This document shows, one piece after another, positions 21,941-26,039 of a DNA stretch of 64,000 nt; position 1 is the stretch's first letter; each line of letters begins with the position of its first letter. The DNA comes from Chthoniobacteraceae bacterium (GTDB taxonomy: Bacteria; Verrucomicrobiota; Verrucomicrobiia; Chthoniobacterales; Chthoniobacteraceae), in the NCBI GenBank assembly GCA_947479475.1, contig CANJZW010000003.1, positions 1 through 64,000 of the forward strand, given 5' to 3'. The notes under the pieces were generated by a model. The model was not told the origin of the DNA. It worked only from the letters and a program-made list of their open reading frames with translations, and did not search any database. A program made the position numbers and the translations under genes.

Positions 21941-23176
21941 ATGTCGGACGAATCGTTTTTCCGCAAAAACTTCCTCCTTGTAGCGCTGCTGCATGTCGTG
22001 GTGCTGGGTGGTATTTGGTTTTTCAACGCGGCACGCAAGATTCAAAAGCCTGTGGAAGTGATGTGGCTCGATGGAGGGGCTGGCGGTTCCGCCGGCGCTC
22101 CCGAGGGCGGTCCCGCCCCAGCTGCCCCCCCAGAGTCCGCCGATACGCTGCCTGAGTTGCCCGCCCCCGCGCTCCCAAAGGTTCCAGCTCCCAGGCCCTC
22201 GCCCAAGCCGGAACCCGCCGTGCCCAAGCCTGAGCCCGTGGCCCCCAAGCCTGAGCCCAAAGACGAGCCGCCCAGCGAGATTTCCTTACAGACTCAAAAG
22301 CCGAAGCCCGAACCCAAACCGGCACCCAAACCCGAGCCGAAGCCCGAACCCAAACCGGCGCCCAAGCCTGAGCCGAAGCCCGAACCCAAACCGGTACCCA
22401 AACCGGCACCCAAACCCGAGCCGAAGCCTGAACCCAAACCGGCGCCGAAGCCCGAGCCGAAGCCCGAGCCGAAGCCCGAACCCAAACAGACACCCAAACC
22501 GGCACCCAAACCCGAGCCAAAGCCTGAACCCAAACCGGCACCAAAGCCCGAGCCGAAGGCGGAACCAAAACCCGCGGCCAAGTCGGACGCCTCCGCCAAA
22601 GCCCCGCCCAAAGCGGAGCCGAAACCGGCCGGACCGGTCAAAGTGGAGGCTGTCGCGGGAGGTCAGTCTGGCGAAAAGGGGCCGCCCTCCGTGGTGCCGG
22701 TGCGGGTTGAAGCCGTGGGGGGGACAGGAAATGGCGGGGGCAATCCCGGGGGTGGGATGGGGACTGGCTCGGCGCAGGGGCGCGGCGGATCCGGCGGGGG
22801 CGGCGGGGGAACGGGGGCTGGAGGGGGCGGAGCCGGCAACGGATCAGGGAGCGGGTCTGGCCGGGCGGGCGGGGGGCCGAGTGCGGCGGATCTGGGGCGT
22901 TACGGGCGCACGATTTACGAGCGTTTTTACAGCGTGTGGGAGCAGCCCATGTCGGTGGTGCGTTCCAATCAGGACTTCGTGACCGTTCTTAAAATCCGGA
23001 TTCGCAAGGACGGAACCATCGCGGGGAGGGAAATCGTCACCTCCTCGGGAAACCCGGCGATGGATGAATCCGTGCAGCGCGCTGCAGAAAAGGTGCATCG
23101 GATCGAGGCGCCTCCCCAGGGGATTGTCACCGACCCGTACGAAGTCCGCATTGCCTTCAAACTGGATCAGAACTAG
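21941..23176 (+). CDS. tonB: TonB-family energy transducer with very long Pro/Lys/Glu linker
   Basis: 411 residues. One N-terminal membrane anchor ([18 protein letters not shown], about 11-28), then a proline-rich spacer of about 155 residues (75-230) built of EPKP/APKP units, a glycine-rich stretch (about 255-315), and a C-terminal TonB/TolA-like domain (about 317-411; [48 protein letters not shown]). The domain couples the ExbB-ExbD proton channel to outer-membrane receptors. E. coli TonB has 239 residues; here the spacer is far longer. No TonB-dependent receptor is encoded nearby, so the partner is elsewhere. Confidence 0.9.
22295..22575. repeat. Degenerate PKPEP-coding tandem repeat in tonB
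   Basis: More than 25 imperfect 12-base units coding Pro-Lys-Pro-Glu/Ala are arranged in tandem; several longer blocks (such as the GAACCCAAACCGGCACCC-type unit) recur exactly, so slippage or recombination could change the spacer length in frame in multiples of 6 or 12. Confidence 0.9.
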
Positions 23177-23229
23177 CGCCTGTGGGTGAATAGCCGTTTT
23201 TCATAAACATTCTATCCTCCCGGTTTGCA

Positions 23230-23258
23230 GAGCGCGTTTTTCCGGGATTTGGGCGCTC
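23230..23258. terminator. Possible bidirectional hairpin between convergent genes
   Basis: GAGCGC (23230-23235) pairs with GCGCTC (23253-23258) around a 17-base loop, between the end of tonB and the end of the convergent transposase-domain gene. No T-run follows on either strand; an overlapping CCCGG/CCGGG pair offers an alternative fold. Confidence 0.3.
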
Positions 23259-23328
23259 CTCACCGACCTCAAGCAGCGTGGGTGAAAAACAGCGATTCAC
23301 GAACAGGCTCGAACGGGGACGGGCGGGA

Positions 23329-24582
23329 TCAGCTTTTGAGGCCGAACATTTTCGGGTCAAACTTTTCGCCAAAGGAATTGGCACCTTTTTGGGAGGATGT
23401 TCCTTTTTTGATGAAAAAAGTGCGGCTGATGATCCCCTGTGGCGCTGCATGATTGAAGACCCTGCACTGGAAGGCGAGCATGCCGTCCTCCGGTTCCAGA
23501 GCGACGGTGAGGGAGGCTTCGATGCAGCCTTCGATGGGGGTGGAAACGCTTTTGATGTCGTCGAACTGCTCCCATTGATAACGCAGAGGCAAGTCGCCGG
23601 ACACGCTGACTTCCATGCGGATAGGCTCGCCCGGTGGGACGCGCAAAACGAGGGGGGCGGTGGTGTCGAACTGCGGGGAGCCCAATTCCTGGACGGGTTT
23701 TGTCTCCGAAACCGGGGCGCCGAAGGCGTTTGAATTGGACTTGGACTTGGCCTTTGAAATCTCTGTGGGAACGAAGCCCTTGCGCTTGAACATCTGGGCG
23801 TAAGTCTGCACCGACATGGGTTCTTGCGTTTGTTGGAGGAGGCTTTCCGGCGGCGCGGGGCTGTCTGTTTTTGCCGATGCGTTTTGAGGCGAAGACGGGC
23901 CGCTTGCAGCAATTTCGCTGCCCTTGGGATCGGCCGGGTTTTTGGCGGTTTCCTTTGGATTGGCAGGCGCGCCGGACGGCGGTGTGGCCCCGGGGGAAGA
24001 GGAGGGCTCCGTAGAGGTCTCTGCGGGTTGGTCGGGCTGGGGAGCGGCTGCGGACTTCGCGTAGGTGTGCTTGATGCTGGATTGGAAGTCTGGCCTGGGC
24101 GGGGCCTTGTAAGGGGCGGCCGGCAGGGGGTTGGAAAAGTGGATCTGGCGCAGGGCGAGAGTCTCGTCGCCGGAGGTTCCCGCATCCTGGGGCACGGGTG
24201 CCGTAACCTCCCCCTTGATGGGCTTGGAGTTGCGGAGGGAGTTTGTGATCAGGGCCAACCGGGCCGCCCGCTTCGGGTTGACAAAACGTCTGAAGGCGAT
24301 GCATTCGGCCGGCGAAACGGGGATTTGCCACTGGAACTGCTCAAAGCCGGAAAATGCCTGCCAATAGGGGTTTTCCGGCCAGCGGGCCAGGACTTCCCCC
24401 TCTGAAAGCCCTGTCAATTCCCCCAAAACGACTAGGGAGGCCAGAATCCAGATCTTGGCCGCGCTCATCCCCTCTTGATGCGCTTCGGGAAACAGGCCCA
24501 CCACTTCTGTCCAGTCAAAGTCGCGCGCGGCCTTTGCAAGAGGCCGGTTGAGGTCCAGAATATCGAAGAGCCTGACTTTCAT
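23329..24582 (-). CDS. IS5-type transposase N-terminal domain fused to a disordered linker and an Ig-like domain (domesticated)
   Basis: 417 residues. Residues about 10-105 match the DUF772/InsH N-terminal domain of IS5/IS1182-type transposases: LNRPLAKAARDFDW, then ILASLVVLGELTGLSEGEVL and the hallmark ARWPENPYWQAFSG (E70-Q75). There is no catalytic DDE domain; instead a Pro/Ala/Ser/Lys-rich, probably unfolded stretch (about 120-300) leads to a C-terminal Ig-like beta domain (about 310-395: PLVLRVPPGEPIRMEVSVSG, LPLRYQWEQF, FQCRVFNHA). No signal peptide, inverted repeats or target duplications are visible, and the frame is intact, so this appears to be a host gene that took over a transposase DNA-binding/dimerisation module rather than an insertion-sequence remnant. 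Function unknown. It converges on tonB and diverges from bioA. Confidence 0.8.
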   Translation of the reverse strand: MKVRLFDILDLNRPLAKAARDFDWTEVVGLFPEAHQEGMSAAKIWILASLVVLGELTGLSEGEVLARWPENPYWQAFSGFEQFQWQIPVSPAECIAFRRFVNPKRAARLALITNSLRNSKPIKGEVTAPVPQDAGTSGDETLALRQIHFSNPLPAAPYKAPPRPDFQSSIKHTYAKSAAAPQPDQPAETSTEPSSSPGATPPSGAPANPKETAKNPADPKGSEIAASGPSSPQNASAKTDSPAPPESLLQQTQEPMSVQTYAQMFKRKGFVPTEISKAKSKSNSNAFGAPVSETKPVQELGSPQFDTTAPLVLRVPPGEPIRMEVSVSGDLPLRYQWEQFDDIKSVSTPIEGCIEASLTVALEPEDGMLAFQCRVFNHAAPQGIISRTFFIKKGTSSQKGANSFGEKFDPKMFGLKS

Positions 24583-24707
24583 CGAGGAGGATAGGTTACA
24601 CCACTTATCTAGCGGAGGGGAATGCCGACGCTTGTTTTTTTAAAACCAGCATTTCAAGGCGACTCTGCCGCTTGCTGCGCTGCATGGATTAAGCGAATAT
24701 TCAATGA

Positions 24708-26039
24708 ATGCCCCGTGTGATTCATTTCCCGACCCTTGAAAATTCCCTGCCCCCCCTGGGAACTCCCATGGATTGGGAGAGGGCCCACGTCTGGCATCCC
24801 TTCACACAGATGCGCGACTGGTGCGCAACGGAGCCGGTCATGCTGGTGGATGCTCTGGGCGCCTCGGTGCAGGATTCCCACGGCCGCTGGTACATTGACG
24901 GAAACTCGTCCATCTGGACCAACATTCACGGGCATCGACATCCGCGACTGGACGCCGCCTTGCAGTCGCAGCTCAAGCACTTCGCGCACACCTCCTTTCT
25001 CGGGTTGACGCATCCCGGCGCGGCTCAATTGAGCGCGGAACTGGTGGCGCTTTGGCCCGAAAACACGCTTTCCCGCGTTTTTTTATCTGACAACGGGTCG
25101 ACGGCCATTGAGGTCGCCTTGAAAATGGCGGCCCAGTACTGGCAGATCAAGGGGCGCCCTGAAAAGCAGCGGTTGGTGGCGTTTGAGGGAGCCTATCACG
25201 GCGACACGCTGGGGGCGTCCAGTTTGGGCGGGGTGTCGACGTTTACCGAGCGGTTTGCGGCCTGGCATCTTCCGGTCGACCATGTGGACTCGATTTCCGC
25301 GCTCGAGGCGCTCTCTGCGGATGGGGTGGCGGCGGTGGTCATCGAACCCCTGGTGCAGGGGGCCAATCAAATGCGCCTCTGGCCCTCCGGCCTGCTCGCC
25401 CAGGTTCGGCAGTGGTGCGATTGGCACGGGGTTTTTCTGATCGCGGACGAGGTCATGACGGGTTTTGGGCGCACTGGCACCCTGTTCGCCTGTGAGCAGG
25501 AGGGTGTCGTTCCTGACTTTGTGGCGCTCGCAAAGGGCCTCACCGGGGGGTACATGCCACTCGCCGCCACGCTCACCACCGAACGCGTCTTCGAGGCGTT
25601 TCTCGGCGGGGCGGATAAAACTCTTTATTACGGACACTCTTACGCTGGGCATGCGCTCGGCTGTGCCGTGGCTTTGGAAAACCTGGCGATCTTCCGGGAG
25701 GAGGGCGTGCTAAGCCGGTTGCAACTTCAGATTCAGCGGCTGGCCGCCCTTTTAGAACAGCACTTGCGACCGTCGCCGTTTGTTTATGAAATCCGGCAGC
25801 GCGGTTTTCTGGCGGGGATCGAGCTGCGGGCTGCGGGGGGCGCGCCCTTTGTTGCTGGTGCCGCTGGCCTTGGGATGGGCGCGCGGGTGTGTGTGGCGGC
25901 GCGGAAGTATGGTCTGTTGACCCGGCCCGTGAGGGACACTGTTGTGCTGATGCCCCCGTATTGTATAACAGACTTGGAATTGGAGCGGGCTGTGTGTGCT
26001 GTTGCCGCCGGCATAGAAGAGTGCTGCACTAAACCCTGA
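24708..26039 (+). CDS. bioA: Adenosylmethionine-8-amino-7-oxononanoate aminotransferase
   Basis: 443 residues, normal for BioA. This PLP enzyme converts 7-keto-8-aminopelargonate to 7,8-diaminopelargonate using S-adenosylmethionine as amino donor in biotin synthesis. Signatures: HVWHPFTQM near the N terminus, GSTAIEVALKMAAQYW, YHGDTLGASSLGG, IEPLVQGANQM, DEVMTGFGRTGTLFACEQ, and the PLP lysine in ALAKGLTGGYMPLAATLTTE (near residue 274). Start at 24708 is provisional: no clear ribosome site; the in-frame ATG at 24768 (MDWERAHVWHPF) is also possible. Other bio genes are not in the window. A nested hairpin with T-run follows the stop. Confidence 0.93.
   Translation: MPRVIHFPTLENSLPPLGTPMDWERAHVWHPFTQMRDWCATEPVMLVDALGASVQDSHGRWYIDGNSSIWTNIHGHRHPRLDAALQSQLKHFAHTSFLGLTHPGAAQLSAELVALWPENTLSRVFLSDNGSTAIEVALKMAAQYWQIKGRPEKQRLVAFEGAYHGDTLGASSLGGVSTFTERFAAWHLPVDHVDSISALEALSADGVAAVVIEPLVQGANQMRLWPSGLLAQVRQWCDWHGVFLIADEVMTGFGRTGTLFACEQEGVVPDFVALAKGLTGGYMPLAATLTTERVFEAFLGGADKTLYYGHSYAGHALGCAVALENLAIFREEGVLSRLQLQIQRLAALLEQHLRPSPFVYEIRQRGFLAGIELRAAGGAPFVAGAAGLGMGARVCVAARKYGLLTRPVRDTVVLMPPYCITDLELERAVCAVAAGIEECCTKP

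Follow-up and report, generated by a model that had tools for sequence, protein, structure and literature searches.

The gene at positions 23329–24582 on the minus strand of the window (the whole 64,000-nucleotide stretch of Chthoniobacteraceae DNA analysed here) raises the question of whether the N-terminal domain of an IS5-type transposase has been taken over by a bacterial host protein, and what such a domain would do there. In the window sequence, the open reading frame runs for 417 codons without interruption, and the gene is present as a single copy in the window genome (G000). A first-pass annotation of this DNA had described an intact frame free of flanking inverted repeats. Its coordinates and frame are correct, and we found no convincing inverted repeats, the sole pair spanning the gene being 13 nt long (85%). 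The gene and its parts are arranged as follows.

23329–24582, minus strand: fusion gene of 417 aa, composed of an IS5 transposase N-domain, a disordered linker and an Ig-like domain (intact frame, orthologues, dN/dS)
24223–24582, minus strand: DUF772/IS5-type transposase N-terminal domain, all-helical, residues 1–120 (NF033578, PF05598, AlphaFold2 pLDDT about 90)
23686–24222, minus strand: low-complexity Pro/Ala/Ser/Thr-rich linker, residues 121–299 (low pLDDT, composition, alignment)
24049–24174, minus strand: conserved linker motif SGDETLALRQIHF..PYKAPPRPDF.S.IK..YAK.A, residues 137–178 (nearly invariant columns in the alignment of orthologues)
23770–23814, minus strand: second short linker motif QTYAQMFKRK, residues 257–271 (alignment of orthologues)
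23404–23685, minus strand: Ig-like domain, residues 300–393 (AlphaFold2 pLDDT 89–97, Foldseek Ig matches, family profile)
23329–23403, minus strand: C-terminal tail and stop codon with the conserved motif NSFGEKFDP, residues 394–417 (alignment of orthologues)
24596–24603, minus strand: TGGTGTAA block a short way before the start codon, putative promoter element (upstream alignment of orthologues)

The TGGTGTA block immediately upstream of the start is common to most orthologues in the upstream alignment and may form part of the promoter.

The N-terminal domain is homologous to IS5 transposases. In the whole protein, residues 3–123 align with positions 7–130 of NF033578, an IS5 transposase model of 419 positions, at an E-value of 6.9e-18, and residues 1–111 alone match the same model with an E-value of 1.2e-18. 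The Pfam model PF05598 (DUF772) scores 25.1 bits on residues 1–111 and 21.9 bits on the whole protein, the former above and the latter just below its cut-off of 23.1 bits. By Pfam alone the DUF772 assignment is borderline, because the whole-protein score lies under the cut-off. The assignment is backed by the agreement of NF033578 and of nine of the ten family members, which match PF05598 at E ≤ 0.1. No DDE family was matched by the 417-aa protein in our profile searches, which return one for a control full transposase (L074). These results are in line with the DUF772/InsH pattern and the missing DDE catalytic part noted earlier from the letters of the DNA. Full DDE transposases are only distant relatives of the fusion protein, at about 30% identity, as expected for the donor family.

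In the AlphaFold2 model, which was computed on an alignment of 16 sequences, residues 1–120 form a confident helical domain with pLDDT values mostly of 84–94 by blocks. The region from about 123 to 299 is of low confidence, save for a weak helix near residues 140–150, and a confident beta-sandwich is formed by residues from about 300 to 393. Modelled by itself, the helical domain reaches a pLDDT of 90.8 and a pTM of 0.83. It has no convincing match in the PDB or in the viral BFVD (best VIA Z of 3.1, among tied rows), nor a convincing match to a helix-turn-helix, and these searches turned up no experimental IS5 N-domain structure for comparison. The fold therefore neither indicates a biochemical role nor speaks against one. 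Foldseek places the beta-sandwich among Ig domains with E-values of 1e-5 to 1e-3. The Pfam model Ig_3 gives only a marginal match, at E 0.089 and 13.8 bits against a cut-off of 30 bits, and reaches E 0.0072 for the best family member. The canonical disulphide pair between the B- and F-strands is absent from this domain, the B-strand position being occupied by V325 and the F-strand C373 being kept. Many bacterial Ig repeats likewise lack this pair. The disordered linker of about 180 residues and the Ig-like domain proposed in the first-pass annotation are thus both recovered in the predicted structure.

The fusion was traced by a family-profile sweep that covered the 12 genomes of the genus, 40 of the family and 213 of the order, together with samples of 384 genomes from the class and 388 from the phylum. 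In addition, peptide patterns were scanned over a collection of 84,980 species. Intact orthologues are present in nine of the 12 genus members (G000, G007, G001, G011, G004, G009, G005, G003 and G010), with identities of 46–77% among the nine frames and linkers of 164–267 aa. A tenth genome, G006, carries a diverged, minimal fusion of 273 aa with a linker of 39 aa and no linker motifs. This copy has moved to another place, L046:8327–9148 (minus strand), between genes that read, by sequence, as a flagellin and an FeoB-type GTPase. Of the remaining two members, G002 has only an Ig-like protein and G008 has neither this protein nor the fusion. Neither the profile sweep up to the phylum sample nor the peptide patterns in the 84,980 species revealed a transposase–Ig fusion outside the genus, and the pattern scan of IMG/VR gave no relative. 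The matches outside the genus are to the N-domain only and are nearly always transposases or their remnants.

Most orthologues occupy the same neighbourhood between tonB and bioA. In seven genomes the fusion gene and tonB are convergent, and in five the fusion gene and bioA are divergent. We did not find the bioA gene (24708–26039 in the window) in G001, and in G011 it has another location; the fusion gene is retained in both. A regulator of bioA was considered and rejected for this reason. In G003 and G010, a gene reading as an FKBP-type isomerase lies downstream of the fusion gene. Given the absence or relocation of bioA and this FKBP-type neighbour, the neighbourhood points to no functional partner. 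The neighbouring TonB (window 21941–23176) has a long (KPEPKP)n linker, whose length varies among relatives and inside which contigs often break.

Purifying selection was assessed by Nei–Gojobori dN/dS on the three closest pairs, G000–G007, G009–G005 and G010–G003. In this order, the N-domain has ratios of 0.08, 0.07 and 0.03 and the Ig domain has ratios of 0.10, 0.08 and 0.04. Those of the linker core (residues 176–299) are 0.25, 0.37 and 0.15, and residues 121–175 give 0.09–0.16; all are approximate, as dS is 0.6–1.4 in the folded parts and more distant pairs are saturated. The N-domain and the Ig domain are under similar, strong purifying constraint, a pattern that a transposase fragment in decay would not be expected to show. 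A non-functional remnant or an artefact of ORF calling is therefore the least probable reading of all, and we regard it as highly improbable: the gene is single-copy and restricted to one genus, and it is known from draft genomes only, those of the relatives being mostly recorded as metagenome-assembled, but the frame is intact in nine assemblies at 46–77% identity and, in the closest pairs, all regions have a dN/dS far under 1. The evidence supports a domesticated host gene that purifying selection has maintained and that lacks both a catalytic part and any sign of mobility. This conclusion agrees with the domestication suggested in the first-pass annotation, as the relatives in the genus carry the same fusion, mostly at one locus, with no DDE domain and no frameshifts.

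The distribution of the two halves suggests how the gene arose. In a tree of ExbB, ExbD and two neighbouring genes, built on partial data for some genomes, the ten fusion-bearing genomes are set apart from G002, G008 and the outgroups with 95% support. The fusion N-domains, including that of G006, are monophyletic with respect to the transposases (SH-aLRT 94.1, UFBoot 80). Most simply, a single fusion of an IS5-type N-domain with an Ig-like domain took place in the common ancestor of these ten genomes. An empty site is seen in G006 and G008, where tonB adjoins bioA with no gene between them. The basal species G002 encodes a small stand-alone Ig-like protein with no evident signal sequence (L047:7393–7776, plus strand). 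It is the closest relative of the Ig half of the fusion, scoring 54.9 bits against the fusion Ig profile, far closer than any Ig repeat of the large Verrucomicrobiota ORFs in the loci compared (at most 23.5 bits). This single sequence may resemble the partner before fusion, so that an Ig gene would have predated the joining, or alternatively it may have lost its N-domain secondarily in G002.

Between the stop codons of tonB and the fusion gene, the window contains a MITE-like element of about 134 bp (23177–23310) with 26-bp terminal inverted repeats, which lies 18 bp beyond the fusion-gene stop codon and had been missed in the first-pass annotation. At about 80% identity, it matches the left end of an IS that is multicopy in the window genome; this IS is collapsed on contig C194 and carries an IS5-like transposase. 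The element is absent from the orthologous loci. A recent insertion of the gene by way of this MITE was rejected, as the element is specific to the window genome and belongs to another IS.

The nine orthologues were compared with about two dozen transposase N-domains. Core residues W24, W68, Y73, Q75, F77, G79, P88 and R98 are the same in both groups. Three basic positions conserved in 88–100% of the transposases have changed in the nine orthologues: R45 has become W, K54 is mostly G, and R100 is F, Y or H. The fusion N-domain has a net charge near zero; the transposase N-domains are not more basic, so that charge alone is not decisive. The loss of conserved basic residues argues against a simple retention of inverted-repeat binding, and sequence-specific recognition of the old transposon ends has probably been lost.

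These changes also bear on the idea of a transposition inhibitor, in which a catalytically dead fragment would silence IS5 elements by binding their ends or their transposase. The N-domain is homologous to the IS5_1 transposases, of which the genus holds only fragments and contig-cut or decayed copies (G005, G001, G011 and G008). However, the end-binding basic residues are changed, identity to any transposase found is only about 30%, and the transposase of the multicopy IS in the window genome has a different N-terminus that is not matched by the fusion protein. In addition, the constraint on the Ig domain would be left unexplained. We consider an inhibitor improbable.

We favour a two-headed cytoplasmic adaptor, in which the transposase domain serves as an interaction or oligomerisation module, and give this reading a probability of about one half. 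The helical domain would act as the compact module and the Ig domain would bind a partner, while the disordered linker, which carries short conserved motifs, would tether both domains and recruit further partners. A cytoplasmic location is suggested by the lack of an evident signal peptide on reading the protein sequence, together with the lack of a canonical Ig disulphide. The retained core residues, the replacement of R45, K54 and R100 and the near-zero charge would favour the adaptor over a binder of transposon ends. Against it, arginines 98, 99 and 105 and the basic residues 108 and 120 could form a new nucleic-acid surface, and the diverged G006 copy retains R45.

An exported or surface protein would place the Ig domain outside the cell and use helix 41–57 of the N-domain as a membrane anchor. 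Ig repeats of the same broad type do occur in large ORFs of the genus genomes, and helix 41–57 is more hydrophobic in the alignment than its counterpart in transposases. Nevertheless, this helix is too short for an anchor, its aligned counterpart in the transposases is a soluble core helix, and no N-terminal signal sequence is evident, which makes export even less probable than the inhibitor. The large-ORF repeats of Verrucomicrobiota share the Ig fold and the PL.YQW core with the fusion protein, which differs from them in its single Ig domain and in lacking an evident signal sequence.

The main rival of the adaptor is a DNA-binding regulator or nucleoid protein, whose N-domain would bind DNA at new sites while the Ig domain and the linker recruit partners, in the manner of the vertebrate transcription factors that arose as host–transposase fusions. 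IS903 is an IS5-family element whose N-terminal part has been reported to bind the inverted repeat. The fold of the N-domain is under strong constraint, and in the nine orthologues arginines 98, 99 and 105 are fixed and positions 108 and 120 are basic in nearly all, these residues being located in and before the last helix of the domain. The divergent orientation to bioA in five genomes would also suit a regulator, and tetrapod host–transposase fusions often bind DNA (PMC12062965). On the other side stand the loss of R45, K54 and R100, the neutral net charge, the lack of a convincing helix-turn-helix match, the lack of an obvious palindromic operator in the upstream alignment of orthologues, and the persistence of the gene where bioA is missing (G001) or moved (G011). 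We hold the regulator as a possible, tentative reading. A bolder version, which we consider only slightly less likely, is that the IS5 N-domain gained a nucleic-acid surface anew (R98, R99, R105 and R108) and brings an intracellular Ig domain to DNA. The protein would then define a new class of regulator or nucleoid factor, and the transposase module would have been domesticated a second time, independently, as a stand-alone protein of another genus.

Eukaryotes provide well-documented cases of host genes that have taken up transposase domains. TldR proteins, exapted from the transposon nuclease TnpB, offer a bacterial parallel, being likewise domesticated from a mobile-element protein with catalysis lost. 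They are RNA-guided transcription factors (PMC13418256) and correspond to a whole TnpB-like protein, whereas the fusion retains the transposase N-domain only, within a chimera. The eukaryotic host–transposase fusion genes include SETMAR, CSB-PGBD3, KRABINER and the F-box A2 genes of worms (PMC12062965). In these, as here, a host domain acquired a transposase domain in frame, and the fusion was kept; the present case differs in being bacterial, in using an IS5/DUF772 domain instead of one from a eukaryotic transposable element, and in its Ig partner. In-frame joining, retention across species and purifying selection, which define a host–transposase fusion, are all observed. The worm F-box A2 proteins with a captured Mariner helix-turn-helix show no detectable binding to transposon repeats (PMC12062965), so that, with the DNA-binding tetrapod fusions, adaptor and DNA-binding outcomes both have precedent. 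Compared with IS5 family transposases (NF033578; PF05598 DUF772 plus PF01609 DDE_Tnp_1), the fusion shares the homologous N-domain with its ENPYWQ.F.G core, and has an Ig domain instead of the DDE domain and no terminal inverted repeats. Unlike mobile IS5 elements, it is a single-copy gene with the same neighbourhood in most orthologues, G006 being the exception.

In the open-access full text searched, we found no described DUF772 domestication or transposase–Ig fusion in bacteria, and nothing relevant on Ig and transposase in Verrucomicrobia. On this basis, a host–transposase fusion with a DUF772 module appears to be undescribed for bacteria. For this one gene, the donor family can be seen together with empty sites, ten descendants and a candidate for the Ig partner before fusion, which makes the origin and later adaptation of a bacterial fusion gene traceable and testable.

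The phylum sweep also revealed a stand-alone DUF772 protein in G651 and G716, two species of another Verrucomicrobiota genus (L228:8289–8894, plus strand, and L229:2213–2791, minus strand). It has 176–201 aa depending on the start, scores 48.6 bits for DUF772, has no DDE part, and ends its basic C-terminal tail in DAESDELLLPLQ. It lies in a syntenic block with 86% DNA identity over 2.6 kb, and its dN/dS is 0.15. Like the fusion gene, it combines a DUF772 domain that lacks a DDE part with purifying selection and a syntenic position; it differs in lacking an Ig domain and in keeping the R and K that the fusion has lost. In the tree it branches inside a different transposase clade from the fusion N-domains, and is therefore independent of the fusion gene. 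These two sequences, a small sample, would represent a second, independent DUF772 domestication, which suggests that the module is repeatedly useful. Other short DUF772 ORFs were considered as DDE-less proteins and rejected, most being full, frame-broken or contig-cut transposases or remnants. In G556, an ORF at L221:1–1989 (minus strand) joins a DUF772-type transposase part in frame with FtsK alpha and motor domains, for which a remnant, an IS fusion and a functional chimera are candidate readings.
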